Source: Amycolatopsis sp. WQ 127309 (lineage in GTDB: Bacteria; Actinomycetota; Actinomycetes; Mycobacteriales; Pseudonocardiaceae). Taken from it: DNA of 64,000 nucleotides. The DNA lies in assembly GCF_023023025.1 (NCBI RefSeq), contig NZ_CP095481.1:2108001-2172000 (forward strand), given 5' to 3'. Positions 6,925 through 21,811 of this stretch are shown here, piece by piece. Position 1 is the first letter of the stretch, and each line of letters begins with the position of its first letter. The notes beneath the pieces are model-generated. The model was not told where the DNA came from. It saw only the letters and a list, made by a program, of their open reading frames with translations, and did no database searches. Position numbers and translations under genes: made by a program.

Positions 6925-7110
6925 TCAGCGTTCCGAGTGCAGGACGCCGCCCGTCGACCAGTGGTCCGCGCCGACCTCGATGAGCGTCACCTGGACGCCT
7001 TCGGGCTTGCCGCCGCAGGTGCGGACGAACGCGTCGGTCAGCTCCCGGACCAGGGCGCTCTTCTGGGCGGGCGTGCGGCCGGGGAACATCGAGACGCTGA
7101 TCATCGGCAT
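6925..7110 (-). CDS. 4-oxalocrotonate tautomerase family protein
   Basis: 61 residues, the size of a 4-OT monomer. Pro2 follows the initiator Met, giving the catalytic N-terminal proline; the sequence begins PMISVSMFPGRT and carries the conserved EVGADHW segment near residue 45. These enzymes tautomerise or decarboxylate small keto acids and work as hexamers. AGGAGAG lies 8 bases before the ATG. It begins 42 bases after the last FemAB-like gene on the same strand and ends at the terminator, so it is probably the last cistron of that operon. Whether it serves that pathway is unknown. Confidence 0.85.
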   Translation of the reverse strand: MPMISVSMFPGRTPAQKSALVRELTDAFVRTCGGKPEGVQVTLIEVGADHWSTGGVLHSER

Positions 7111-7152
7111 GGCGGGGCTCTCCTGAAGCGCGGCGGGTGAGATGCCGCGAAG

Positions 7153-8178
7153 CTAGCAAACCGGGACGGCCGCCGCGTACTGCGGGACGAGCCGCGCCCC
7201 GAGCGTCGCCTTCATCTCGGTCATCTTCTTGCCGAACACCACCGACGACCGCCCGTGCGCGATCGCCCAGCTCACCGCCTCGCCGTAGAAGTGGAAGTAC
7301 AGGTTGGGCCGCCCGCCGGCCTCGGGCCCGAGCGCGCCCCAGTGCCGCGCGATCGGCAGCTCCGGGTGGTCGAGCAGGGTCGCCACGGCGAGCAGCCGCC
7401 CGGTGCCGGTGTCGCGGTACTCGATCACCGTGACGTCGGGCTGGCGCAGCAGCTCCGTCAGGTAGCCGGTGAAGTGCGGCAGCGGCACGATCGGCACGTC
7501 GTGGTGCTTGCGTTCGTTGTGCCGCAACACTTCCGCGATGGCGACCGGGTCGGCCTCCTTGCCCGGCACGCACCGCACCTCGACGCTCGGGTCGGCGTCG
7601 AAGGTGCGGAAGATCTTGCGCAGGTTCTGCTTGCGCTTGCGAGCCAGCGAGTGCATCCAGTCGTCGCGGGAGCCGAACGCGCTGACGTCGAGCACGGCGA
7701 TGTCCTCGGTCCGCCGCACCAGCCGGAACCGGCCGCCGACGGCGTCGAGCCCGGCCTCGCCGACCTGCCGGACCAGCATCCCGCGGAACCCGCGGCCGAG
7801 CTCGGCGCGGATCGCCGGGACGTACGTCTCGAGCAGCCGCGTCACGCCGCCGTCGTCGCCCGGGTCCGCGAACCACCAGCCGGGCTGGGAACTCGCGCCG
7901 GGCCCGCGGACGTCGAGGCCGCCGAGCCGGCCGCGGCGCGCGGTCGCGGAACCGAAGCGGTTGCGGCGGGTCCGGCCGGTGACCCACGCGGCGCAGACGA
8001 CACCGCGGGGTTCGTCGCCGTCGCGGAGCACGGTGACCGGCTGCGGGGTCCGCGCGGCCCACGCCTGGGTCCGGAGCACCTCCCAGCTCCAGTCGGCCCG
8101 GAGCCCGGCGCGCTCGCGCAACGCCGTCCAGTACGCCGGTTCCGCGTCGTGGCGCGGGTCGAGCACGTCGGTCACCAT
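7153..8178 (-). CDS. FemAB/GNAT-like acyl(aminoacyl)transferase, paralogue 4 of the array
   Basis: 341 residues. It opens with VLDPRHDAEPAYWTALRER, the signature that also opens its three neighbours (DPRtDPepaGWaaF). The C-terminal half has the FemAB/Acetyltransf_6 pattern: basic SLARKRKQNLRKIFR, the TVIEYRDTGTGRLLAVATLLDHPE strand-turn-strand, ARHWGAL, LYFHFYGEAVSWAI and VVFGKKMTEMKATLG. Relatives transfer aminoacyl or acyl groups to peptidoglycan or other envelope acceptors. The start at 8178 overlaps the stop of the upstream paralogue by 7 bases. The last motif reads GKKMTEMK instead of GRGxxxLK, and this is the most diverged member. Confidence 0.75.
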   Translation of the reverse strand: MVTDVLDPRHDAEPAYWTALRERAGLRADWSWEVLRTQAWAARTPQPVTVLRDGDEPRGVVCAAWVTGRTRRNRFGSATARRGRLGGLDVRGPGASSQPGWWFADPGDDGGVTRLLETYVPAIRAELGRGFRGMLVRQVGEAGLDAVGGRFRLVRRTEDIAVLDVSAFGSRDDWMHSLARKRKQNLRKIFRTFDADPSVEVRCVPGKEADPVAIAEVLRHNERKHHDVPIVPLPHFTGYLTELLRQPDVTVIEYRDTGTGRLLAVATLLDHPELPIARHWGALGPEAGGRPNLYFHFYGEAVSWAIAHGRSSVVFGKKMTEMKATLGARLVPQYAAAVPVC

Positions 8179-9215
8179 CGGATCACCGGCCTCGGCACGA
8201 CGGCCCCGGCCATCGGGGCCGGGGAGAACCCCAGCGATGTCTTGAGGTCGGTGACCCCGCGGCCCAGGGACAGGAACTTCCGGCGGTGCTCGATCATGTG
8301 CCCCACCCCGCGCGCGACGACGTCGAAGTAGAGGTGCTTCGGCCGGCCCTCGGCGGGCGGCAGGGCGGCCCAGTGCTGGTGCAGCGGCATCACCGGGTGG
8401 TCGAGCAGGTCGGTGAAGGCGAGCAGCCGGCCGTCGGCGTCGTGGTAGGTCGTCGTGACGACGTCCGGGCGCCGGATCAGCTCGTCGAGGTACTCGCCGG
8501 TGACCGGGCCGCGCTGGTCGAACTTCACCGGGCCCTTGGCCGCGCGGTGCGCGTGCAGCATCGCGGCCAGTTCGGCGCCGTCGAGGTCGTCGCGGGCGGT
8601 GCCTGCGCGGACGGTCAGGCCGGGGTCGGCGGCGATCTTGCGGATCTGGCCGCGCAGGCTCGACCGGCGGTTGCGGCTCAGCGTCGCGAGCCAGCCGTCG
8701 AGGTCGGTGAAGGTGTTCTCCAGCACCAGCGTCGGCTGGATCTCCCGGACGAGCCGGCCCCGCCCGGACACCAGCCCGGTGGCGTCCGGCGCGACCGCGC
8801 GGTAGACCACGCCGAGGCAGCCCGGCCCGGCGAACCGGCACACCGCCCGCTCGAACCGGCGCAGGATCTCGCGCTGCCCGGCCGGGTCGACGTCTTCGGC
8901 GAACAGCCACGCCGGGTAGCTGCTCAGCCAGGCGTGCTGGACCTCCAGCCAGCGCGGCCCCCAGCGGGCGACCCCGCCGACCGGGCCCGGACCGGTGGCC
9001 GAACCCGGGCGGCACAGCATGGCGAGCACAGCGGCGACGATCGCGCCGCCGTCGGTGACCACGGTCAGCAGGTACGGGCTGCGCGAGTGCCGCGACTCCG
9101 TGCACAGCAGGCTGTAGTCCCAGGTCAACGGCGCCTGCTGGGTGTGCAGGAACGCGGCCCAGCCGGCGGGCTCGGGATCGGTGCGCGGGTCGAGCACCCG
9201 CACGGCGAAGGTCAT
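8172..9215 (-). CDS. FemAB/GNAT-like acyl(aminoacyl)transferase, paralogue 3
   Basis: 347 residues, ATG at 9215. It carries the family opening VLDPRTDPEPAGWAAF, the central LARLSRNRRSSLRGQI-like basic segment (here LATLSRNRRSSLRGQIRKI), the strand pair TTTYHDADGRLLAFTDLLDHP, the QHWAALP block, LYFDVVARGVGHMI and the end motif LGRGVTDLKTSLGF, then VPRPVIRW. This is the double-GNAT layout of peptidoglycan-bridge FemX enzymes, but no lipid II acceptor can be inferred. The stop overlaps the next start and the start overlaps the previous stop by 4 bases, so translation is coupled. Confidence 0.75.
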   Translation of the reverse strand: MTFAVRVLDPRTDPEPAGWAAFLHTQQAPLTWDYSLLCTESRHSRSPYLLTVVTDGGAIVAAVLAMLCRPGSATGPGPVGGVARWGPRWLEVQHAWLSSYPAWLFAEDVDPAGQREILRRFERAVCRFAGPGCLGVVYRAVAPDATGLVSGRGRLVREIQPTLVLENTFTDLDGWLATLSRNRRSSLRGQIRKIAADPGLTVRAGTARDDLDGAELAAMLHAHRAAKGPVKFDQRGPVTGEYLDELIRRPDVVTTTYHDADGRLLAFTDLLDHPVMPLHQHWAALPPAEGRPKHLYFDVVARGVGHMIEHRRKFLSLGRGVTDLKTSLGFSPAPMAGAVVPRPVIRW

Positions 9216-10270
9216 CGGCCCAGCACCGGACGCGGCACGGCGATCGACCACAACGAGCGCGTGCCGAAGCCGAGCGCGACCTTTTCGGCGAGCATCGCCC
9301 GGCCCGCGGTCAGTTCGGGCCGCCCTTCGGCGATCATGTGCGCCACGCAACGGGCGTAACAGTCGACATAGAGCCCCTTCCGGCCGCCGGCCGCGCTCGG
9401 TCGCGCCGCCCAGTGGTGCACCGCGCACCCCGCGGGATGGTCGATCATCGTGGCGAAGCCGAGCAAGCGGCCGGCGTTGTCGCGGTAGGTCCGGGTCAGG
9501 ACGTCCGAACGGCGGACCAGCGTGTCGAGGTAACCGGGCGCGACCGGGCTGCGGGTGTCCATGCGCAGCCCGCCGATCCGCGACCGCTGTCCGCCCGCCC
9601 ACGCGCGCTCGTCCTGCCGCGCGCGGTGGGCGTTGAGCAGCACGGCCAGTTCGTGCGGGTCGACGTCGGTGCGGCCGAACGCCGCTTCGGTGCCGACGTC
9701 CTGGTGGAGGTACCGCCGGACCTCGGGAGCCAGCCCGCGCTCCCATTCGTCCACTGTGGAATACGTGTTGCGCAGCACGGCGGCCGGGTCGATCTCGCGG
9801 GCCGCCCGGCCCCGGCCGTCCAGCGCCGGCACCAGTTCCGGGTTCATCGCCCGGTAGATCACCCCGAGCAACCCGGGCCCGACGTAGTCGCGCAGCGCGC
9901 GTTCGAACCGCCGGACGGCGGCCCGCTCGTCGACGCCGTCGTCGAAGACGCACGCGGGGTAGCCGCTCAGCAACGGGAGGTAGACCTCGGCCCAGCGCGG
10001 CCGCAGCCGGCCACCGGAAAGCGGCCCGAACTCGCGGGACCGCCAGCCCCGGCACACCATCACCGACAGCGCCCCGACGACCCGCTCGCCCTCGCGGACG
10101 ACGGCGAGCACCGGTGGGTTCTTCGCCAACCACGCCTCGCGGCGCAGTAGTTCGTAGTCCCACACGGGTGGCAGGCACCGGGCGCGGAACGCCGCCCAGC
10201 CGTCGGGTTGCGGGTCGACGCGGGGGTCGACGACGTCCACTTGCGACACCATGGTCGCGGTCGCGGTCAT
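9212..10270 (-). CDS. FemAB/GNAT-like acyl(aminoacyl)transferase, paralogue 2
   Basis: 352 residues, ATG at 10270, with an ATGA overlap on the upstream paralogue. Family blocks seen: VVDPRVDPQPDGWAAF near the N-terminus, WAEVYLPLLSGYPACVF, GPGLLGVIYRAMNPE, VLRNTYSTVDEWERGL, LTRTYRDNAGRLLGFATMIDHPA, HHWAARP, LYVDCYARCVAHMI, TAGRAMLAEKVALGFG and the tail AVPRPVLGR. The end motif has AEK where the others have LK. The substrate is unknown; the level of identity to its neighbours suggests local duplication followed by specialisation. Confidence 0.75.
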   Translation of the reverse strand: MTATATMVSQVDVVDPRVDPQPDGWAAFRARCLPPVWDYELLRREAWLAKNPPVLAVVREGERVVGALSVMVCRGWRSREFGPLSGGRLRPRWAEVYLPLLSGYPACVFDDGVDERAAVRRFERALRDYVGPGLLGVIYRAMNPELVPALDGRGRAAREIDPAAVLRNTYSTVDEWERGLAPEVRRYLHQDVGTEAAFGRTDVDPHELAVLLNAHRARQDERAWAGGQRSRIGGLRMDTRSPVAPGYLDTLVRRSDVLTRTYRDNAGRLLGFATMIDHPAGCAVHHWAARPSAAGGRKGLYVDCYARCVAHMIAEGRPELTAGRAMLAEKVALGFGTRSLWSIAVPRPVLGR

Positions 10271-11307
10271 CGGCCCAGCACCGGCCTCGGCACCGCCGCG
10301 GCGAAGAGCGCGCGCGGCCGGAACCCCAATTCCCGCTTCAGTTCGACCATGCCCCGGCCCGCCGAAAGTTCTTTCGCCCCGCGCCGCGCCATGAATCGGA
10401 CAGCGCGGACATACGCGTCAAAATACAACCCTGCGCCCCGGCCGCGTTCGTCCAGCGGCAACGCCGCCCAGTGCTGCAGGCTGGGGCTGTCCGGGTGGTC
10501 GAGCATGGTGTTCACGGCCAGCAGCCGGCCGTCCGCGTCGCGGTAGGTCAGCGTGTGGACGTCCGGACGCCGGACGTAGCGGTGCAGGAACCCGGCCGAC
10601 GGCATCGTGCGCGTGTCCAGCGGGAGCTTCCCGTACCGCTCGCGGTGCACCTTGATCAGCGACGCGACCTCGACGCCGTCGACGTCGTCCCGGCCGGGGC
10701 CGCCGCGCACCACCAGCGCCGGGTCCTCGGCGATCCGCCGGCCGCGGCGGCGCAGGCTCGATCGGCGGGCGGACGGGAGCGTCGCGAGCCAGTCGTCTTC
10801 GGTGGTGAAGCGGTTTTCCAGCACGGTCGTCGGGTCGGTCGGCTTGACCAGCCGGGCCCGGCCGCCGACGCCGGCGGCGAACTCCTCGCCGATCGCGCGG
10901 TAGACCACGCCCAGCAGCCCGGGGCCCAGGTGCCGGCGCAGCTGCCGTTCGAACTCGCGCACCAGCGGCTGCCGGTCGGCGGCCGGGAGCGCCGGCGCGA
11001 ACACGATGCCCGGGAAGCCGCTCAGCCACGGCTGGTAGACCTCCGCCCAGCACGGGCGCGGCGAACGACGTCCCGGCGCCGGCGCGAACCGCGAGGACCA
11101 CGGCAGGCGGCAGACCAGAACGGACATCCCGGCGACGACTTCGTCCCCCTCGACGGCGGCGACGACCAGCTGCGGGTTGCGCGCGCCCCAGGCCTCGAGG
11201 CCCATCAAGCCGTAGTCCCACACCGGGTGCAGCCGTGCGGTCCGGGAGAAGTCCACCCAGCCCGCGGGCGCCGGGTCCGTGCGGGGATCGTGGAACACGA
11301 ACCTCAT
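10267..11307 (-). CDS. FemAB/GNAT-like acyl(aminoacyl)transferase, paralogue 1
   Basis: 346 residues, ATG at 11307, coupled by ATGA to the ligase-like gene upstream. It has the same blocks as its three downstream neighbours: HDPRTDPAPAGWVDF, WAEVYQPWLSGFPGIVF, GPGLLGVVYRAIGEE, VLENRFTTEDDWLATL, PSARRSSLRRRGRRI, LTYRDADGRLLAVNTMLDHP, LQHWAALP, LYFDAYVRAVRFMA, LSAGRGMVELKRELGF and AVPRPVLGR. It is the closest of the four to the array consensus. No signal peptide or membrane segment is present, so it acts in the cytoplasm or on the inner face of the membrane. Confidence 0.75.
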   Translation of the reverse strand: MRFVFHDPRTDPAPAGWVDFSRTARLHPVWDYGLMGLEAWGARNPQLVVAAVEGDEVVAGMSVLVCRLPWSSRFAPAPGRRSPRPCWAEVYQPWLSGFPGIVFAPALPAADRQPLVREFERQLRRHLGPGLLGVVYRAIGEEFAAGVGGRARLVKPTDPTTVLENRFTTEDDWLATLPSARRSSLRRRGRRIAEDPALVVRGGPGRDDVDGVEVASLIKVHRERYGKLPLDTRTMPSAGFLHRYVRRPDVHTLTYRDADGRLLAVNTMLDHPDSPSLQHWAALPLDERGRGAGLYFDAYVRAVRFMARRGAKELSAGRGMVELKRELGFRPRALFAAAVPRPVLGR

Positions 11308-12080
11308 GCGACGACGACCGGGCTGCCGTGACGCGGGCAGGACTCGATCCGGCCGGGCACCCCACCGGCCGGGATGACGTCGACGAACCGCGGGGACTCC
11401 TGGCGCAGCAAGGTGAAGGCGAGCCCGCCGGCGGTCGGCCGGGCGTGGACGTGCGGCCAGTCGAGGTGCCACCGCCCGCAACCGGCCAGCGCGCCGAGGT
11501 AGCCGAGCGCCGGGTCGTGCAGCACGCCGTACGGGCCGGCGTCCAGCGAGTCGAGTTCACGGTGCGGCACGGCTTCGACACGGTGCGCGCTGTCTTCGGG
11601 CAGGGCGGCGGTGAACGTCGTGATCGCCTTGTCGTCGCCGACGGCGAGCACGCGGTGACCGCGCGCCAGCACCGCCGTCAGCTCGCGGAGCACGGACGCG
11701 CTCGGCGCGTCGGGATCGGCGACGCAGCCACGAACGCCTTTCGGCAGGTCGGAAGGCGGGCGGAGATCGTCTTGTCCCAAAAGGACGATCAAGCTGCCGG
11801 GCGTGGGCCGCCGCGCCGTCCGCAGCACCCGGCCGAGGCCGCGCGACGGGTCGGTCCACTGCGCACCCCCGGCGAGCGGGACCAGGTCCACGAGCTTGTG
11901 CACGGCTTCTGCGAGCGGCGCCGCGCCGCCGTTCGTCCCGGTGCGACCCGGTACCAGCACTGGATCTTCACGGCCGTCGAGCGCCCAGCGCTCGCGGTAG
12001 AACGGCACCGTGGCGAACGCCGAGCGCACCGCCCGCGCGTAGGCAGCACGCCACACAACACCAGCCCCCAGACTCCACAT
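11304..12080 (-). CDS. Degenerate phenylacetate-CoA-ligase / LuxE-like protein
   Basis: 258 residues from the ATG at 12080; a GTG at 12137 would add 19 residues, and neither has a clear ribosome-binding site. The N-terminus (AVRSAFATVPFYRERW) matches the opening of the phenylacetate-CoA ligase/LuxE adenylating fold, and the C-terminus (GRWHLDWPHVHARP, FTLLRQESPRFVDVIPAGG, GRIESCPRHGSPVVV) resembles its D-box and Cys-rich end. The central ATP-binding P-loop (usually SSGTTG-like) is not visible and the protein is shorter than the usual 400 or more residues. It may be a partner or acyl-binding protein, or have lost activity. First gene of the leftward operon. Confidence 0.6.
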   Translation of the reverse strand: MWSLGAGVVWRAAYARAVRSAFATVPFYRERWALDGREDPVLVPGRTGTNGGAAPLAEAVHKLVDLVPLAGGAQWTDPSRGLGRVLRTARRPTPGSLIVLLGQDDLRPPSDLPKGVRGCVADPDAPSASVLRELTAVLARGHRVLAVGDDKAITTFTAALPEDSAHRVEAVPHRELDSLDAGPYGVLHDPALGYLGALAGCGRWHLDWPHVHARPTAGGLAFTLLRQESPRFVDVIPAGGVPGRIESCPRHGSPVVVA

Positions 12081-12137
12081 GGCCGGGGAGTCTGCGCCAT
12101 CGCGAGGCGTAGTGGAAGGACTTCGTCCGCAGGACAC

Positions 12138-12284
12138 CCCGAATGCCGGATGGGTTAATACTTTGGTCTGGGTCTGAACGGAGGAATTCGCAGTAAAGCT
12201 GTCCCCAAACGTCGATCGGTCTGCTTATAACTCCGCAACGCCGCGCATCGACAAGCGGTCTGAGCAGATCCAACTGGGGTATTC
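12138..12284. promoter_or_regulatory. Divergent promoter region of the surface-molecule locus
   Basis: About 150 bases separate the leftward ligase-like gene from the rightward glycosyltransferase operon. The stretch is clearly less GC-rich than its surroundings (for example GGGTTAATACTTTGG near 12152 and CTGCTTATAACTCCGC near 12221). The TTATAACT segment could be part of a -10 element for the rightward operon, but no -35 could be fixed. One shared control region for both halves would fit a common pathway. Confidence 0.45.
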
Positions 12285-12356
12285 ATGAGCACCATTCGCA
12301 CTGTCGGTGATCGGACGGACACGAATCCGGCATCACCCGCCCGGCGTTGCAGATGA
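12285..12356 (+). CDS. Possible 23-codon upstream ORF coupled to the glycosyltransferase
   Basis: ATG at 12285, 23 codons (MSTIRTVGDRTDTNPASPAR..., ending RCR), stop TGA at 12354-12356. The stop overlaps the ATG of the glycosyltransferase (12353) in an ATGA arrangement. CTGGGG lies 7-12 bases before the ATG as a weak ribosome-binding site. It is the only ATG ahead of the glycosyltransferase in this leader. It could be a short leader peptide that sets translation of the operon, or simply the 5' leader with a chance ORF. There is no enrichment for one amino acid, so it is not an obvious attenuation peptide. Confidence 0.35.
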   Translation: MSTIRTVGDRTDTNPASPARRCR

Positions 12357-13363
12357 CCAGGGCATTCCCTGGTCCGGCGACGTGCGGACTCACCGTAGTC
12401 ATTCCGTGCTTCAACGAAGTCGACAACGTCGGACCGTCCTATCGGGAAATAACCAACGAACTGTCCGACTATTCACTCGAACTGTTTTACATCGATGACG
12501 GGAGCACCGACGGAACGCTGGGCGAGATCCGCACACTCGCCGCGGCCGACCCCCGGGTGCGGTATGTGTCCTTCAGTCGCAATTTCGGTTTCGAAGCCGC
12601 CTTCTCGGCCGGCTACCGGTACGCGTCCCAACCCTGGGTGCTGCACATCGACGCCGACCAGCAGTTCCCCGCCGCCGAGTCGCACAAGCTCATCGCGGCG
12701 GCCGAACAGGGGTACGACGCGGTGTTCGGCGTCCGCACGAACCGGCAGGACCCGCGGCTGCGGCGCTGGGGCACCGCCGCGTTCCACTTCATCGGCGCCC
12801 GCCTGCTGCGCATCGAGATCCCGCCGGGCGCCACGGCGTTCCGGCTCGTCCGGGCCGAGCTGGCCCGGAAGATCGTGGACCTGCGGCTCGGCACGCCGTA
12901 CTTCCTGGCCACGGTCCCGCGGCTGACGAGCCGCTACACCTGTGTCCAGGTCGCACACCGGGCCCGCGAGCGCGGTGAGTCCAAAGTGGGCATGAGCTTC
13001 CTGTCGTCGCACGCCATCGAGCTGTTCGTCGGGTTCACCCGCCGGCTGACCACCGTGGCCTCGGCGACCGCGTTGTTCGCCGCCGGCTTCGGCGTGCTGG
13101 CCGCCGCGGCGGCGGCGTCCGGCCTGCTCGGCTCGAGTGCCACGGCCGTGACGCTCTTCATGCTGCTCACCGTGCTGCTGCTGGTGCTCTCGCTGACCGT
13201 GCGCTACCTCGTCGTGGTCGGCGCGGGGCAGCCGAAGCCGCGGCAGTTCTACATCCGGGAGGCGAACGTCGTGGTCGACGTCGAGGACCGGCTCTTCACG
13301 ACCGAGGACCCCGAGGGGCCCCGGCGGATCGATGTGCAACTGGGGAAAGGCATTTCAGCGTGA
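12353..13363 (+). CDS. GT2 glycosyltransferase with two C-terminal membrane segments (GtrB/DPM1-like)
   Basis: 336 residues. The GT-A nucleotide-sugar domain shows VVIPCFNE (15-22), DDGS (48-51) and DADQ (100-103), and the QVAHRARERGESKVG stretch is the typical catalytic-base region (R-ESK) of undecaprenyl/dolichyl-phosphate sugar synthases. Two hydrophobic helices follow at about 228-285, placing the enzyme at the membrane. It probably transfers a sugar to a polyprenyl phosphate. ATG at 12353 is chosen over an in-frame TTG at 12347 because of the ATGA coupling to the upstream ORF. First main gene of the rightward operon; its stop overlaps the next start by GTGA. Confidence 0.85.
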   Translation: MTRAFPGPATCGLTVVIPCFNEVDNVGPSYREITNELSDYSLELFYIDDGSTDGTLGEIRTLAAADPRVRYVSFSRNFGFEAAFSAGYRYASQPWVLHIDADQQFPAAESHKLIAAAEQGYDAVFGVRTNRQDPRLRRWGTAAFHFIGARLLRIEIPPGATAFRLVRAELARKIVDLRLGTPYFLATVPRLTSRYTCVQVAHRARERGESKVGMSFLSSHAIELFVGFTRRLTTVASATALFAAGFGVLAAAAAASGLLGSSATAVTLFMLLTVLLLVLSLTVRYLVVVGAGQPKPRQFYIREANVVVDVEDRLFTTEDPEGPRRIDVQLGKGISA

Positions 13364-14601
13364 CAAGTTCCGAGAGAGGCTCCGCGAGAACCCTGGTGAT
13401 CCTGGGCGGCGCGGACGGTGCGGTGAGCACCTACGAACGGGCCCGCGAGCTGGGCTTCCGCACGATCTGCGTCGACGTCCGCCTCGGCGCGCCGGGGGTC
13501 GCGTTCGCGGACGAGTTCCTGCAGGTCAGCGTGCGGGCGCCGGAGCAGATCGCGGCCGCGCTCGACGGCCGGCCCGACATCGCCGGGGTGCTCTGCCCGG
13601 CGAGCGACGTCGGCCTGCCGACGCTCGCGTGGCTCACCCGGCACTGGGGCCTGCCGGATCCCCTGCCCGAGTACGCGGTCCAGGCGTCGACGGACAAGTC
13701 CGTCTTCCGCGCGCTCTGTGACCACTTGGGACTCCCGGGCTACCGCAGTGTCGCCGGCCGCCCCGGCCCGGAGCTGGTCAACGCCGCCCAGCAGCTGCGG
13801 TTCCCGACGCTGGTCAAGCCGGTCGACTCGTCCGGCAGCCGCGGGGTCGTCTCCTGCTCCGGCCCCGGCCGGCTGGCCAAGGCGTTCACCGAGTCGCTCG
13901 CGTTCTCGCCGTCCGGCCGCCTGGTCGTCGAGGAGCACCTCGACGGCACGCACTACACGATCGAAGCGCTGGTCGTGGACGGCCGGATCGTCTTCCACGC
14001 CGTCACCGAACGCACGCTCACGCCGCCGCCGTTCTTCGTGACGTCGTCGCACCTGCTGCCCGGCGAACTGCCCGCGGACGCCGAGCTGCGGCTGATCGAG
14101 GCGCTCGACCTGATCTGCGCCGAGCTCGGCTACCGGACCGGGCCGCTCACGCTGGACGCCGTCCTGGGCCGCGACGGGCAGCTCTACCTCATCGAGATGG
14201 GCGCCCGGATGGGCGGGAACGGCCTCGCGGAAGCGATCCAGCACTGTTACGGCGCCGACCTGATCGCCGCCGGGATCGCGGCGGCCACCGGTGACGCGGT
14301 GGAGCTGGACCTGCACGCGGCGAAGCCGACGCTGGTGCACATCCTCGCGTCCGACCGCGGTGGTCATCTGTCCCGGGTGGACGGTGTCGAGGACGTCCGC
14401 ACGATGCCCGGCGTGGTCGGGCTGCACCTGTTCGCCGACGAAGGGTCCTACGTCAAGCCGTACGAGCAGGCCGGCTACAAGCTGGGTTACGTCGTGCTCA
14501 CCGCCCGGTCCGTGCCCGAGGTGCTCGCCGCGGAGAACGAGGTGCGCGGCACGCTGAAGTTCCTGCTCCACGAGCAGGACATGGCGGTACCCCTGCCGTG
14601 A
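13360..14601 (+). CDS. ATP-grasp ligase
   Basis: 413 residues, GTG start. N-terminal Rossmann-like part (LVILGGADGAVSTYERARELG), then the ATP-grasp domain: KSVFRALCDHLGLP, FPTLVKPVDSSGSRGV (flexible loop with the ATP-contacting Lys), VEEHLDGTHYTIEALVV and the metal-binding LYLIEMGARMGGNG. Members join a carboxylate to an amine or thiol with ATP (amino-acid ligases, carboxylases). Together with FemAB-like genes across the divergent promoter it could make an amide-linked decoration. Substrates are not predictable. Coupled at both ends by 4-base overlaps. Confidence 0.85.
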   Translation: MTSSERGSARTLVILGGADGAVSTYERARELGFRTICVDVRLGAPGVAFADEFLQVSVRAPEQIAAALDGRPDIAGVLCPASDVGLPTLAWLTRHWGLPDPLPEYAVQASTDKSVFRALCDHLGLPGYRSVAGRPGPELVNAAQQLRFPTLVKPVDSSGSRGVVSCSGPGRLAKAFTESLAFSPSGRLVVEEHLDGTHYTIEALVVDGRIVFHAVTERTLTPPPFFVTSSHLLPGELPADAELRLIEALDLICAELGYRTGPLTLDAVLGRDGQLYLIEMGARMGGNGLAEAIQHCYGADLIAAGIAAATGDAVELDLHAAKPTLVHILASDRGGHLSRVDGVEDVRTMPGVVGLHLFADEGSYVKPYEQAGYKLGYVVLTARSVPEVLAAENEVRGTLKFLLHEQDMAVPLP

Positions 14602-15857
14602 CGGGGTTGTCCCCCGCCGCCCCGCCGGTCGTGGCCCCGCCACGGCCGGCGGTGGTGCTGCGCCTGCTCGCCGGCCGCGGGGTGTTCCGGTTGTCGGTCC
14701 AGCTGATGGGGCTGGTCCTGCTCACCGCGTGGGGCGCGCACGACTACGGGCGCTTCACGAACGCGCTCGGCCTGATGACGTGGCTGAACTTCGTGCCGGC
14801 CGCGGCGGAGAAGTCCGCGCTCAAGGCGTTGCCCCGGCTGCGCCTGACCCGGGACGCGGTCGCCGCGCTCGCGGTCCGGATCGCCGCCGTGCCGGTGCTG
14901 GTGGTGCTGGCCGCCATGGTCGTCGCGCTCGTCGTCGCGCCGGAGTCGGACGCGGCGCTGTACCTGACGGCGGCCGCGTGGTCGATCGCCGGCGGGCTGC
15001 TGATGACCGTGTCCGGTCTGCACCGGCTGCGTGACAAGTCCATTTTGGACGCGCTCGCGTTCGCCGCGGGCTCGGTCGTCGTCGGGATCATCACGTGCGT
15101 GACCTGGGCGGTGCGGTGGTCCCCCGAGACGCACCTCGCGCTGCTGCTCGCCGGGCTCGTCGTGATCCTCGGCGCGTCGGTGGCCCTGCTGCCGAGGCCG
15201 TGGCTGCGCGGCGGCGGCGTGCCCGGGCACCGGCTCCTGCCGGCGTACGGGCGCAGCACGGTCCTGCTCGGCCTGACCGAACTGCTCGACGTGATCTCGA
15301 CGTCGGTGGTGTTCGGCGTGCTGGCGCTGTCCGGGCGGACGACCGACAGCGGCCCGTTCTACCTGGCGCTGCTGGTGTCGAGCGCGTTCTGCTCGCTGCT
15401 GTTCTACCAGCTGAAGCTGCACCAGCCGACGGCGTCGCGGCGGATGCGCGGCACCGGCGCGGTGGCCGGCCGGGCGCGCGCGTCGGAGCTGCTGAAGCTG
15501 GTCGAACGGGCCGGGATCGGCTTCGCCGTGCTGCTCGGGGCGGGTCTCGCCGTGCCGTCGACACGCGCGTTGCTCATGACCGAGGACAGCTACGTCGTGC
15601 TCGGGGTGCTCGTGCTCGTCGAGACGGGGCTGTACGCGACCGGGCTCTACGCGAGCTTCCTCATCGAAAACACCAACAGCAAGGTGCTGACCCTGACCTC
15701 GGGCACCGCCGTAGTAGCGCTCGCCGCCACCGCCGTCGGCGCCGCGCTGCTCGTGCCCCCGCTCGGGCCGGTCGGCGGGTTCGCCGCCCTCGTCCTCGCG
15801 CTCGCGGTCAAGGCGGCCGTCCTGCGGCGCCTGCTCCACCGCCGTCACTCGTTCTGA
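14598..15857 (+). CDS. MOP-superfamily membrane protein, flippase-like
   Basis: 419 residues, GTG start overlapping the ATP-grasp stop (GTGA). About 12 hydrophobic segments are visible, with short basic cytoplasmic loops (LPRLRLTRD, HQPTASRRMRG) and a very short N-terminus. This pattern matches polysaccharide flippases (Wzx/MATE type), which turn lipid-linked oligosaccharides to the outer face of the membrane. No Wzy polymerase lies beside it. Between a polyprenyl-sugar synthase and a carbamoyltransferase, export of a modified glycolipid is the simplest reading. Confidence 0.7.
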   Translation: MTGLSPAAPPVVAPPRPAVVLRLLAGRGVFRLSVQLMGLVLLTAWGAHDYGRFTNALGLMTWLNFVPAAAEKSALKALPRLRLTRDAVAALAVRIAAVPVLVVLAAMVVALVVAPESDAALYLTAAAWSIAGGLLMTVSGLHRLRDKSILDALAFAAGSVVVGIITCVTWAVRWSPETHLALLLAGLVVILGASVALLPRPWLRGGGVPGHRLLPAYGRSTVLLGLTELLDVISTSVVFGVLALSGRTTDSGPFYLALLVSSAFCSLLFYQLKLHQPTASRRMRGTGAVAGRARASELLKLVERAGIGFAVLLGAGLAVPSTRALLMTEDSYVVLGVLVLVETGLYATGLYASFLIENTNSKVLTLTSGTAVVALAATAVGAALLVPPLGPVGGFAALVLALAVKAAVLRRLLHRRHSF

Positions 15858-15869
15858 ACTGGGAGAATC

Positions 15870-17687
15870 ATGTACGTACTGGGCATCAGCAGGGTCCACG
15901 ACTCGGCGGCGGCACTCGTGCGCGACGGCGAGATCATCGCCTTCGCCGAGGAGGAACGCTTCACCCGCAAGAAGCACGACGGCGGTTTCCCCGCCGAGGC
16001 CATCAAGTTCTGCCTGGAGCGCGCCGGGATCACGCTGGCCGACGTCGACCACGTCGCCTACTACTGGCAGCGCTGGAAGGAAGGCATCCACGCGGCCAAG
16101 GTGTTCGCGCGCTACTTCCCCGGCACGCTGGACGTCTTCCGCAACGCCAACGGCGACGAAGGCGGCCGTTCGTCGGGCATGGTCGACACCTTCAAGACCG
16201 GCGGCGGCTCGGGCCACGACGACTACCACGTCGGCGGCGCGGTCCTGGCCCACATCAAACGGTCCTACACGCTGGAGCAGGAAGTCAAGGACGCCACCGG
16301 GTGGACCGGCCCGACGAAGTTCAAGACGCACCTCGTCGACCACCACCGCGCGCACGCGGCCAGCGGCTACTTCATCTCGCCGTGGGACGAGTCGGCCGTG
16401 CTCACCTTCGACGGCATCGGCAGCGACGGCACGGCGACCTACCTCGCGCACGGCCGCGGCAACAAGATCGTCGACCTGCGGCGCATCAAGTTCCCGCACT
16501 CGCTCGGCGCGATGTACGCCGGCGTCACCGGTTACCTCGGCTTCTACCCGACCCGCGACGAGGGCAAGATCATGGGCCTCGCGCCGCTGGGCGAGGACAC
16601 CTACGTCGACGCGTTCAAGCAGCTCATCCACCTCGACGACGACGGCGGCTTCGAGCTGGACCTGAGCTGGTTCGCCCACCACCGCACCGGCAAGCACGTG
16701 ATGGCCGAGAAGTTCGCCCGCACCTTCGGCCCGGCGCGGCCCAAAACCCGCGTCACGGCTGAGAATCCCGTTCCCCAGCACTACTGCGACATCGCGTACG
16801 CGCTGCAGGTGACGCTGGAGGAAGCGGGCCTGCACCTGGCCCGGTGGCTCCAGCGCGAGACCGGTTCGAAGCGGCTGTGCGTCGCCGGCGGCGTCGCGCT
16901 CAACAGCGTCATGAACGGCCGGATCCTGCTGGAGACGCCGTTCGAGGACTTCTTCGCCCAGCCCGCGGCGGCCGACGACGGCTGCGCGCTCGGCGCGGCG
17001 CTGGAGGTCTCGGTCGGCAAGTACGGCAAGCCGCGCCCGCGTGACGGCTACACCTACACCGGCCCGGACTACACCGAGGCCGAGATGGAGGTGGCGCTGC
17101 AGGACGCCGGCGTCGAGTACACCCACGTCGACGACATCGCCGCGCACACCGCCGCGAAGATCGCCGACGGCCGGATCGTCGGCTGGGTGCAGGGCCGGAT
17201 GGAGTGCGGGCCGCGGGCGCTGGGCAACCGCTCGCTCGTCGCCGACCCGCGCGACCCGGAGTCGAAGACCCGGATGAACGAGAAGGTCAAGCACCGCGAG
17301 GCGTTCCGGCCGTTCGCGCCGTCGTGCCTGGCCGAGCGCGCGGGCGAGTACTTCGTCAGCGACTACCCGTCACCGGTGATGCTGCTGGTGTTCGACGTCC
17401 TGCCCGACAAGCGCGCCGAGGTGCCGGCGATCACGCACGTCGACGGGACCGCGCGGGTGCAGACGGTCAGCGAGGCGGACAATCCGCTGTACTACCGGAT
17501 GATCAGCGAGTTCGAGAAGCTGACCGGCGTGCCGATGGTCGTCAACACGTCGTTCAACGACAACAACGAGCCGATCGTGGCGAGCCCGGCCGACGCCATC
17601 GCCTGCTACCTGAAGACCGACGTCGACGCGCTGGCCCTCGGCCCGTTCTGGGTCGAGAAGCCGCGGCTGGAGGAAGACACCGAATGA
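15870..17687 (+). CDS. Carbamoyltransferase, CmcH/NodU family
   Basis: 605 residues, ATG with GGGAGA upstream. It transfers a carbamoyl group from carbamoyl phosphate to a hydroxyl, through carbamoyl-AMP. N-terminal Kae1-like domain: HDSAAALVRDGEIIAFAEEER near residue 10, DHHRAHAASGYF with His158, His159 and His162, and a Gly-rich GIGSDGTATYL stretch. C-terminal YrdC-like part: GRMECGPRALGNRSLVADP, KHREAFRPFAPS and NTSFNDNNEPIVASP. Family members act on Nod factors, cephalosporins, novobiocin and other products. The neighbouring sugar genes suggest that a sugar or lipid-linked hydroxyl is the acceptor. Its stop overlaps the next ATG. Confidence 0.93.
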   Translation: MYVLGISRVHDSAAALVRDGEIIAFAEEERFTRKKHDGGFPAEAIKFCLERAGITLADVDHVAYYWQRWKEGIHAAKVFARYFPGTLDVFRNANGDEGGRSSGMVDTFKTGGGSGHDDYHVGGAVLAHIKRSYTLEQEVKDATGWTGPTKFKTHLVDHHRAHAASGYFISPWDESAVLTFDGIGSDGTATYLAHGRGNKIVDLRRIKFPHSLGAMYAGVTGYLGFYPTRDEGKIMGLAPLGEDTYVDAFKQLIHLDDDGGFELDLSWFAHHRTGKHVMAEKFARTFGPARPKTRVTAENPVPQHYCDIAYALQVTLEEAGLHLARWLQRETGSKRLCVAGGVALNSVMNGRILLETPFEDFFAQPAAADDGCALGAALEVSVGKYGKPRPRDGYTYTGPDYTEAEMEVALQDAGVEYTHVDDIAAHTAAKIADGRIVGWVQGRMECGPRALGNRSLVADPRDPESKTRMNEKVKHREAFRPFAPSCLAERAGEYFVSDYPSPVMLLVFDVLPDKRAEVPAITHVDGTARVQTVSEADNPLYYRMISEFEKLTGVPMVVNTSFNDNNEPIVASPADAIACYLKTDVDALALGPFWVEKPRLEEDTE

Positions 17688-18409
17688 CGATCTCCGCACC
17701 CGCCCCGGTCACCCCCGATCAGGGGTGGGTCGGCGCGTTGTACCGGCGGCGGCGGTGGCTGTGGCTGGTGGCCGCCGTCCCGGCCGTGGTCACGACGCTG
17801 CTGATCATGGTGATCCTGCCGCCGGACCAGACGCTGGACAACGTCGGCGACTGGGCGTTCAAGCTGTGCCCGTTCCTGTTCGCGGTGCTCACGGTCGCGC
17901 TGTTCCCGCGCACGAAGCTGGGCCCGGCGCTGATCGTGTTCGCCGTGTTCGTCTACATGTCCTATTTGGACACCGAACTGGTGATGCGGGTCCAGGCGTT
18001 CGCCCGCGACGCGGCCACGGACGACGACGCGTTCCAGCCCGTCTACCAGTTCGAGCTGTTCGTGACGACGTTCATCGTGCTGTTCGCGCTGCTGGCCTAC
18101 CGCCTCGGCGGCGGCCGGACGGCGAACGTGCTCAAGGCCGGCGTCGCGTCGATCCTGGTGGTCATCTCGGGCGTCAACGACCTGACGTTCTGGGCGCTCA
18201 ACGACGTCTGGGCGGCGGGCACGAAGCCGACCGAGCTGAAGTGGGCGTCGCACATGATCGTGTTCCTCGGCGGGCCGCCGAGCGTGCCCGCCGCGGTGGC
18301 GTTCATGGCCGTGCACCTGGTGCTGGCCGCGATCGTCGTCGCGTTGCCGGTGGGCCGGTGGGTGAACCGGGCGCTCAGAGTCCCCGCTTCACCGACTGAA
18401 GCTTCGTGA
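17684..18409 (+). CDS. Polytopic membrane protein of unknown function
   Basis: 241 residues, ATG at 17684 in ATGA overlap with the carbamoyltransferase. Six or seven hydrophobic segments can be seen, beginning RRWLWLVAAVPAVVTTLLIMV at about 23-43. An acidic loop (RDAATDDDAFQP) and the polar stretch GVNDLTFWALNDVWAAG within a membrane region are notable. I do not recognise the family. Its tight coupling says that it works with the carbamoyltransferase, for example as acceptor-handling membrane partner. The last 35 bases overlap the convergent downstream gene. Confidence 0.75.
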   Translation: MTISAPAPVTPDQGWVGALYRRRRWLWLVAAVPAVVTTLLIMVILPPDQTLDNVGDWAFKLCPFLFAVLTVALFPRTKLGPALIVFAVFVYMSYLDTELVMRVQAFARDAATDDDAFQPVYQFELFVTTFIVLFALLAYRLGGGRTANVLKAGVASILVVISGVNDLTFWALNDVWAAGTKPTELKWASHMIVFLGGPPSVPAAVAFMAVHLVLAAIVVALPVGRWVNRALRVPASPTEAS

Positions 18410-20422: not shown

Positions 20423-21811
20423 ATGGTTCTGCACCAGGGAAAAACCGACCGCCCGGACCGCGTCGGCGGCACGAATCCGATGTACGCCGGAGCGAACCCG
20501 GCGCTCGCGGCGGGCTTCGTCATGCCGCACGACAAGCTGCTCGACGCGCCCGTGCCACCGGACACGGCGCTGCAGCTCGTGCGCGACGAGCTGATGCTCG
20601 ACGGCAACGCGCGGCTGAACCTCGCCACGTTCGTCACGACGTGGATGGAACCGCAAGCGCGTGAGCTGATGGCCGAGTGCGTCGACAAGAACATGATCGA
20701 CAAGGACGAGTACCCGCAGACCGCCGAGCTGGAGCGGCGCTGCGTGAACATCCTCGCCGACCTGTGGCACGCGCCCGACCTCACCGACATCATGGGCTGC
20801 TCGACGACCGGGTCGTCCGAGGCCTGCATGCTCGCCGGGATGGCGTTGAAGCGGCGCTGGTCCAAGCTGGGCCGCACCGGGAAGCCGAACCTAGTGATGG
20901 GCGTGAACGTCCAGGTGTGCTGGGAGAAGTTCTGCGAGTACTGGGAGGTCGAGCCGCGGCTGGTGCCGATGGAGGGCGACCGGTACCACCTCTCCGCCGA
21001 GGAGGCCGTGGCGCGCTGCGACGAGAACACGATCGGCGTGGTGGCGATCCTCGGCTCGACGTTCGACGGCAGCTACGAGCCGGTGGCGGAGATCTCGGCG
21101 GCGCTCGACGCGCTGCAGGAGCGCGCGGGCTGGGACATCCCGGTGCACGTCGACGGCGCGTCGGGCGCGATGATCGCGCCGTTCCTCGACCCCGAGCTGG
21201 AGTGGGACTTCCGGTTGCCGCGGGTCGCGTCGATCAACACGTCCGGCCACAAGTACGGGCTGGTGTACCCGGGTGTGGGCTGGGTGATCTGGCGGAACAA
21301 GGAGGCGCTGCCGTCGGAGCTGGTGTTCAACGTCAACTATCTCGGCGGCGACATGCCGACGTTCGCGCTGAACTTCTCCCGCCCGGGCGCGGAGGTCGCG
21401 GCCCAGTACTACACGTTCGTGCGGCTCGGCCGCGAGGGATTCCGCGCGGTGCAACAGGCCTCGCGTGACGTGGCGACGCACTTGTCGGCCGGCGTCGCCG
21501 ACCTGGGCCCGTTCGAGCTGCTGACCCACGGCGACCAGCTGCCGGTGTTCGCGGTCACCACCCGCCCCGGCGTGAACTTCGACGTCTTCGACGTGTCCCG
21601 CCGGCTGCGCGAGCGCGGCTGGCTGGTGCCGGCGTACACGTTCCCGGCCAATCGCACGGACCTGGCGGTGCTCCGCATCGTGGTCCGCAACGGCTTCACG
21701 CACGACTTGGCGGACCTGCTGCTGGCCGACCTGGCCCGGGTGGTCCCGGAGCTGGAGAAGGAAGGAGGCCGCTCCAAGGACCCAGCCAAGGCGACGGCGT
21801 TCCACCACTGA
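20423..21811 (+). CDS. gad: Glutamate decarboxylase
   Basis: 462 residues, ATG at 20423. A PLP enzyme of the group II decarboxylase family converting glutamate to GABA and CO2 with uptake of a proton. Seen are NLATFVTTWMEPQARELM, the conserved TTGSSEACMLAGMALKRRW, VHVDGASGAMIAPF and the PLP-lysine motif INTSGHKYGLVYPGVGW. Length and the C-terminal HH-containing end match bacterial GadB. No GadC antiporter gene is nearby, so a role in GABA metabolism or general acid stress is likely. An earlier in-frame region is open but unconserved. It ends 4 bases before a hairpin terminator. Confidence 0.95.
   Translation: MVLHQGKTDRPDRVGGTNPMYAGANPALAAGFVMPHDKLLDAPVPPDTALQLVRDELMLDGNARLNLATFVTTWMEPQARELMAECVDKNMIDKDEYPQTAELERRCVNILADLWHAPDLTDIMGCSTTGSSEACMLAGMALKRRWSKLGRTGKPNLVMGVNVQVCWEKFCEYWEVEPRLVPMEGDRYHLSAEEAVARCDENTIGVVAILGSTFDGSYEPVAEISAALDALQERAGWDIPVHVDGASGAMIAPFLDPELEWDFRLPRVASINTSGHKYGLVYPGVGWVIWRNKEALPSELVFNVNYLGGDMPTFALNFSRPGAEVAAQYYTFVRLGREGFRAVQQASRDVATHLSAGVADLGPFELLTHGDQLPVFAVTTRPGVNFDVFDVSRRLRERGWLVPAYTFPANRTDLAVLRIVVRNGFTHDLADLLLADLARVVPELEKEGGRSKDPAKATAFHH

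Follow-up and report, generated by a model that had tools for sequence, protein, structure and literature searches.

Catalytic roles are assigned to the P-loop, RYxxGD and GKxR motifs of PaaK-type ligases, and the enzymes GdmN, decarbamoylnovobiocin carbamoyltransferase and TobZ tailor antibiotics. The prototype three-component glycosylation system (PMC13390465) combines a GT-A enzyme with a flippase, GtrA, and a GT-C enzyme. Here we describe a gene cassette of Amycolatopsis sp. WQ 127309 (Pseudonocardiaceae), in which a family 2 glycosyltransferase (GT2), an ATP-grasp ligase, an O-carbamoyltransferase, four FemAB-like transferases (fem1 to fem4), a PaaK-fold protein (lig), a polytopic membrane protein and a second membrane protein (mem) are encoded together. 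The cassette lies within a stretch of 64,000 nucleotides (the window; positions below are counted from its first letter), and consists of a core of ten genes in two opposite transcription directions; the divergent locus described in the sequence-only reading is indeed present. Our searches brought up no description of such a gene set. With a probability of about 0.5, the ten genes form one pathway, in which a decorated polyprenyl-phosphate monosaccharide is built in the cytoplasm and moved outward.

The two operons of the cassette are one co-inherited unit. Among 200 Pseudonocardiaceae genomes, 22 have an orthologue of the carbamoyltransferase, including 6 of the 11 from the genus of the window; the orthologues are 76-100% identical, and other matches, among those listed, reach at most 49%. 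All 22 loci (the window, L021-L040 and L111; type A) have the divergent layout of the window, with lig and between two and four fem genes in one half and GT2, the ATP-grasp ligase, the carbamoyltransferase and mem in the other, indicating that the two halves are inherited together. The polytopic protein is encoded in 21 of the 22, the exception being genome G045, whose reordered cluster L116 has its own copy. The cassette occurs in Amycolatopsis, Saccharomonospora, Prauserella, Goodfellowiella, Actinokineospora and Actinophytocola; its arrangement is conserved across genera to a degree beyond chance, and the genes flanking it vary between most genera. The search with lig was positive in 27 of the 200 genomes and gave 29 loci: the 22 cassettes, five reordered clusters (type B, L112-L116), L117 and an isolated weak match, L118. 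Independent occurrence of the two operons in most genomes, the outcome that the sequence-only reading had set against itself, was checked and is not what we found, since 27 of the 29 lig loci lie within clusters holding both halves.

A scan for mem through one genome per species (84,980 species) gave 37 loci; as the scan was built on two peptide patterns, diverged relatives may be missed. Pseudonocardiaceae account for 29 of these loci (L041-L068 and L072, the metagenome-assembled genome (MAG) contig L063 being counted in), and the other eight belong to Nonomuraea (two), Acrocarpospora (two), Kribbella, Sphaerisporangium and two MAGs labelled Herpetosiphonaceae. In a class-wide draw of 394 genomes the orthologue (E 1e-170) was detected only in the genome of the window and in one other of the family. 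The loci L041-L077 come in part from the same genomes as L021-L040 (e.g. L047/L022, L049/L024 and L059/L029), and the gene content of L032, L033, L035, L036, L051 and L056 was taken from tblastn. The Kribbella locus L074 was omitted from the counts of intact clusters for its broken cassette genes; in this strain (K. turkmenica, L074:5832-12152) the genes are in pieces, through decay or assembly error. At L069:8175-10687 of Nonomuraea glycinis only the carbamoyltransferase and mem are present, and the two Herpetosiphonaceae MAGs (Chloroflexota; L076 and L077) hold PaaK-like and FemAB-like proteins alongside mem and a carbamoyltransferase that shares 64-66% identity with the query set, perhaps through transfer or mis-binning. 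The alignments A1 to A3 take their rows from L021-L040, without L029 in A1 (no gene), L022, L023 and L036 in A2, and L024 and L030 in A3, where rows were dropped for uncertain ends or start or as near-duplicates; A4 comprises 26 FemAB-like sequences, A5 50 sequences (the window, 48 of 120 listed matches and one locus) and A6 42.

GT2 (12353-13363, plus strand) matched its family profile at 8e-29 and phrog_841 at 2e-40, and among solved structures it matched sll0501 GtrB (5ekp) at 2.4e-26 over residues 5-289 and ArnC (9bhc) at 1e-21. With its two C-terminal hydrophobic segments (241-259 and 265-283), it is by these matches a GtrB/ArnC-type polyprenyl-phosphate glycosyltransferase, and polyprenyl phosphate is the predicted acceptor, GtrB and ArnC being its best solved relatives. 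The ATP-grasp protein (13360-14601, plus strand; ATP-grasp_4, PF13535, 1e-12; LAL_C2, PF18603, 6e-15) is amino-acid-ligase-like and resembles L-amino acid ligases (BL00235, 3vot, 2e-19). GT2 and ATP-grasp form a single open reading frame (ORF) of 730-744 aa in 11 Amycolatopsis loci (nine after removing two contigs found twice) and one of 760 aa in the type B cluster L116, where Pfam confirms both domains. Fusion in two lineages suggests that lipid-sugar formation is directly linked to the ligase chemistry.

The sugar is probably galactofuranose (Galf), as judged from the placement of UDP-galactopyranose mutase. The mutase gene lies inside the cassette in four Streptosporangiaceae (L070, L071, L073 and L075), as placed by manual comparison of its positions with the contig ranges, and is the sole copy in each of these genomes, which points to Galf. 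Streptosporangiaceae are not known to have arabinogalactan. As a base rate, in the family of Nonomuraea cavernae the mutase was detected in 26 of 120 genomes (three of the matches weak); the carbamoyltransferase orthologue is present in two of the same 120, and in these two the cassette includes the mutase. The genome of the window has a single mutase, about 0.8 Mb from the cassette and flanked by DPPR synthase, DprE1 and DprE2, that is, in the arabinogalactan locus. Actinophytocola (L072) likewise has one mutase, outside the cassette, and none was found in the genomes of L069 and L077, the former also without GT2 nearby.

The FemAB/GNAT-like transferases are encoded on the minus strand: fem1 (7153-8178), fem2 (8172-9215), fem3 (9212-10270) and fem4 (10267-11307). 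In a tree of 86 FemAB-like proteins they fall on separate lines running through the genera, with clade supports of 98/95 (fem1), 99/94 (fem2), 100/99 (fem3) and 97/77 (fem4; 100/91 without L039). By this tree the four genes are four old orthologous lines. In two Actinophytocola (L040 and L072) fem1 is accompanied by a single relative, which diverges ahead of the split of fem3 and fem4. The fem1 gene is present in every complete locus and, as fem1-like, in the type B clusters. In the Amycolatopsis/Actinokineospora set the others are lost singly: fem2 is missing in L041 and L046, fem3 in L052 and L054, and fem4 in L043, L044, L049, L053, L023 and L029. Only fem2 passes PF13480 (Acetyltransf_6; 25.8 bits, cut-off 22); fem1 and fem4 match it below the cut-off, fem3 is without a Pfam match, and none of the four passes PF04339. 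An outgroup FemAB-like member in L070 passes both PF04339 (5e-15) and PF13480, and the fem profile aligned with an outgroup FemAB-like profile holding the PF04339 member at 98.4% in hhalign (E 4.6e-15, 315 columns).

The lig protein (11304-12080, minus strand, 258 aa) adopts the ANL/PaaK fold without the carboxy-terminal subdomain of the PaaK ligases. The TSGSSG-type P-loop, the RYxxGD motif and the C-terminal GKxR motif are found in 0 of 50 lig sequences as against 7 of 7 PaaK-like proteins, and lig is predicted to be a pseudo-enzyme. The label ligase-like thus holds for a shrunken PaaK ligase fold, and fails for the catalytic ligase motifs. The gene was first called to 12137; its start is most likely at 12080, as the relatives keep the ATG at that position.

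The carbamoyltransferase (15870-17687, plus strand) is of the NodU/CmcH/TobZ type, with Carbam_trans_N (PF02543) at 2e-60 and Carbam_trans_C (PF16861) at 1e-71, and matches GdmN, decarbamoylnovobiocin carbamoyltransferase and TobZ at about 1e-99. It adjoins mem (17684-18409, plus strand) in all 37 loci found with mem, in one of them as fragments. The mem protein is an orphan with six to seven transmembrane segments, for which the predicted model (pLDDT 85) gave no significant PDB match. The polytopic protein (14598-15857, plus strand; about 10 hydrophobic segments) occupies the flippase position and is flippase-like in size and hydrophobicity; a Polysacc_synt protein (PF01943, 7e-18) is encoded in the Herpetosiphonaceae cassette L077. 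Profile searches gave no family match above cut-off for lig, the polytopic protein or mem.

The five type B clusters hold GT2, ATP-grasp, the polytopic protein, lig, a fem1-like gene with other fem genes, and a homologue of mem that is closest in comparison to the second mem of L071 at 50-54%, all in shuffled order, together with a sugar-nucleotide short-chain dehydrogenase/reductase enzyme. As both halves are kept, they stay together even where the order is broken. No carbamoyltransferase was detected in the 20 kb read at each of the five loci, so the mem homologue also occurs without that enzyme. The type B clusters often have a second, diverged lig, and four of the five encode both a SnoaL-like protein and a Cys-rich one that is unassigned. 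Close to three of the clusters, proteins of about 750-770 aa (L113:3014-5272, L115:5234-7489 and L116:13462-15768) begin like geosmin-type terpene synthases. In Acrocarpospora (L071:4735-20539 and L073) a type B-like set adjoins a type A cluster that includes mutase and PaaK. At L117 a lig-fem4 pair is found beside genes for a nonribosomal peptide synthetase (NRPS), MbtH, ATP-grasp and aspartate decarboxylase. One Actinophytocola genome has aspartate decarboxylase (PanD), MbtH and NRPS beside fem/lig at L111:16543-19001 and L117:1-11271, neighbours that hint at beta-alanine or peptide substrates.

Among the nine internal junctions of the locus seven overlap, six by 4 bases (ATGA or GTGA) and one by 7; at the other two, 12 and 42 bases separate the genes. 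The divergent promoter region of 272 bases (12081-12352) has 59.6% GC. Its AT-rich centre (12130-12290) has 54.7% GC as compared with 70.8% across the window, a value as low being found in 0.25% of 161-base windows, and the AT-richer shared promoter region noticed earlier is thus real. The region contains a CTTATAAC-like box kept in the aligned Amycolatopsis. A leader ORF of 23 codons (12285-12356, plus strand) ends with a TGA overlapping the GT2 start (ATGA); all 6 aligned Amycolatopsis share its start, length and stop, although the peptide sequence varies. The locus had been read as having 11 genes, with a tautomerase among them. The divergent map stands, and membership of the tautomerase does not: the 4-oxalocrotonate-tautomerase-like gene (6925-7110, minus strand, 61 aa; PF01361, 5e-12) was seen next to the cassette in the window and otherwise only in four close Amycolatopsis (L041, L046, L052 and L054). 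The flank of fem1 is visible in the 19 loci L022-L040, and none was detected there (in some of L041-L068 this flank is cut off). As this accessory gene does not travel with the cassette, the core is taken as ten genes. Downstream, a pyridoxal-dependent decarboxylase gene (20423-21811) is oriented opposite to that in six close Amycolatopsis loci, indicating a local inversion.

The proposed pathway builds on what is observed: the genes are co-inherited, GT2, ATP-grasp and the carbamoyltransferase belong to recognised families, lig has kept the PaaK fold and lost its motifs, fusions occur, and the mutase is placed as described above. UDP-galactofuranose would be supplied by the host arabinogalactan pathway in Pseudonocardiaceae and by the cassette mutase in Streptosporangiaceae, and the GtrB-like GT2 would load the sugar, probably Galf, onto polyprenyl phosphate. 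The ATP-grasp ligase may activate a carboxylate, probably of an amino acid, and join it to the lipid-sugar intermediate or its precursor. Each FemAB-like enzyme would then add one acyl or aminoacyl group from a presumed donor, with the dead PaaK-fold protein as a partner or substrate receptor, and the NodU-type enzyme would O-carbamoylate the intermediate, although the steps may follow another order. Finally, the polytopic protein would flip the product, mem anchoring the carbamoyltransferase or handing the product on, presumably to the surface. Part of the sequence-only reading is retained here: the families do fit a lipid-linked sugar with a carbamoyl group. Its tautomerase has fallen away, its ligase-like protein is a PaaK fold without the catalytic motifs, its MOP label could not be confirmed, and aminoacylation and a surface location are presumptions.

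Several observations weigh against this pathway. The case for Galf comes from four Streptosporangiaceae, and neither the type B clusters nor the loci of the Herpetosiphonaceae yielded a mutase. GT2 was not found by tblastn in L069, L074, L076 and L077, and the lipid-sugar step is therefore not universal. The separate loss of fem2, fem3 or fem4 in different strains argues against an obligatory linear chain and fits better with separate decorations. Classical FemAB (PF02388) gave no match in fem1-fem4 or in the whole genome. For the polytopic protein there was no MOP match by Pfam profiles in 20 members, no PF01943 at the locus and 0.1% in hhalign, so the MOP label given to it earlier could not be confirmed, and cassette L029 is without the protein. 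None of the cassette genes was recognisable as a GT-C or phosphoglycosyl transferase, a polymerase or an aminotransferase, the two membrane proteins being without family. The lig-fem pair at L117 stands alone in its NRPS context.

The cassette could also be read as a specialised-metabolite cluster, directing a secreted glyco-peptide or lipid-like small molecule such as an antibiotic, with the polytopic protein as its exporter and no envelope polymer decorated. The patchy distribution (22 of 200 family genomes, and 2 of 394 class-wide including that of the window), the antibiotic-tailoring relatives of the carbamoyltransferase and the NRPS, MbtH and PanD genes beside fem/lig in one Actinophytocola agree with such a role. 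In contrast, GT2 is of the membrane GtrB/ArnC type that loads polyprenyl phosphate, neither a regulator nor a carrier protein nor a scaffold synthase was recognised in the cassette, and closely related copies are kept by many species of one genus; we regard a metabolite cluster as possible but rather doubtful.

That GT2 is of the GtrB type is expected, too, if the cassette is an acyl/carbamoyl variant of the three-component glycosylation introduced above, in which the lipid, once loaded by GT2, is flipped by the polytopic protein, and the sugar then passes to a wall polymer, arabinogalactan or another, through mem or an unlinked GT-C. In the genome of the window the supply of Galf and the arabinogalactan pathway go together. 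However, neither GT-C nor GtrA was recognised among the cassette genes, mem belongs to no family and has no significant PDB match, and the cassette-bearing Streptosporangiaceae are without a second mutase, so that arabinogalactan is unlikely as the acceptor everywhere; this variant is judged improbable. As to two independent operons that are neighbours by chance, the divergent transcription and the lig-fem4 pair at L117 without the other half would be accounted for, but both halves are present in 22 of 22 type A loci and, reordered, in 5 of 5 type B clusters, and the census contradicts this explanation, to which we give hardly any credence.

Returning to the lipid-linked pathway, we tentatively go one step further and suggest, as a possibility short of even odds by a wide measure, that the cassette represents an undescribed class of envelope pathway. 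A single polyprenyl-phosphate furanose (Galf in type A) would be converted into an acyl or peptidyl and carbamoyl conjugate before export, the dead PaaK-fold protein recruiting the specialised FemAB-like transferases; types A and B would be variants in sugar supply and carbamoylation, and strains might alter the molecule by dropping single FemAB-like genes. If the lipid-linked pathway is right, Amycolatopsis and its relatives, many of them antibiotic producers, carry an uncharacterised lipid-linked sugar, the make-up of which is predictable and testable. GT2 gains a named candidate donor (UDP-Galf), and the repeated natural fusion shows which enzyme works beside it. The four related transferases, lost singly in natural strains, provide a series of structures that nature has already made, an adenylation fold that is dead is retained as a partner, and the mem and polytopic families gain a defined context.

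Compared with known systems, the cassette resembles GtrB/ArnC and the three-component glycosylation systems in its GT2, which matches both GtrB (residues 5-289) and ArnC. It differs in its partners: no GtrA-type flippase or GT-C was recognised among its genes, two membrane proteins of which are without family, and ATP-grasp, FemAB-like, carbamoyltransferase and PaaK-fold proteins stand there instead. Likewise, the initiating phosphoglycosyl transferase and Wzy polymerase that mark Wzx/Wzy systems were not recognised among these genes. The mycobacterial-type arabinogalactan locus holds the sole mutase of the genome, but is a separate locus. From the PaaK/CapK adenylate-forming ligases lig differs by the loss of three motifs and the carboxy-terminal subdomain. 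The carbamoyltransferase shares both Pfam domains with NodU/CmcH/TobZ enzymes, and yet forms a separate orthologous line, tied to the orphan mem. With the FemAB-like (PF04339) and BioF2-like GNAT (PF13480) proteins the likeness lies in the PF13480 match of fem2 and in the profile alignment, and the difference is that a single operon of the cassette can hold as many as four orthologous lines, all of them old, and that none matches classical FemAB (PF02388).

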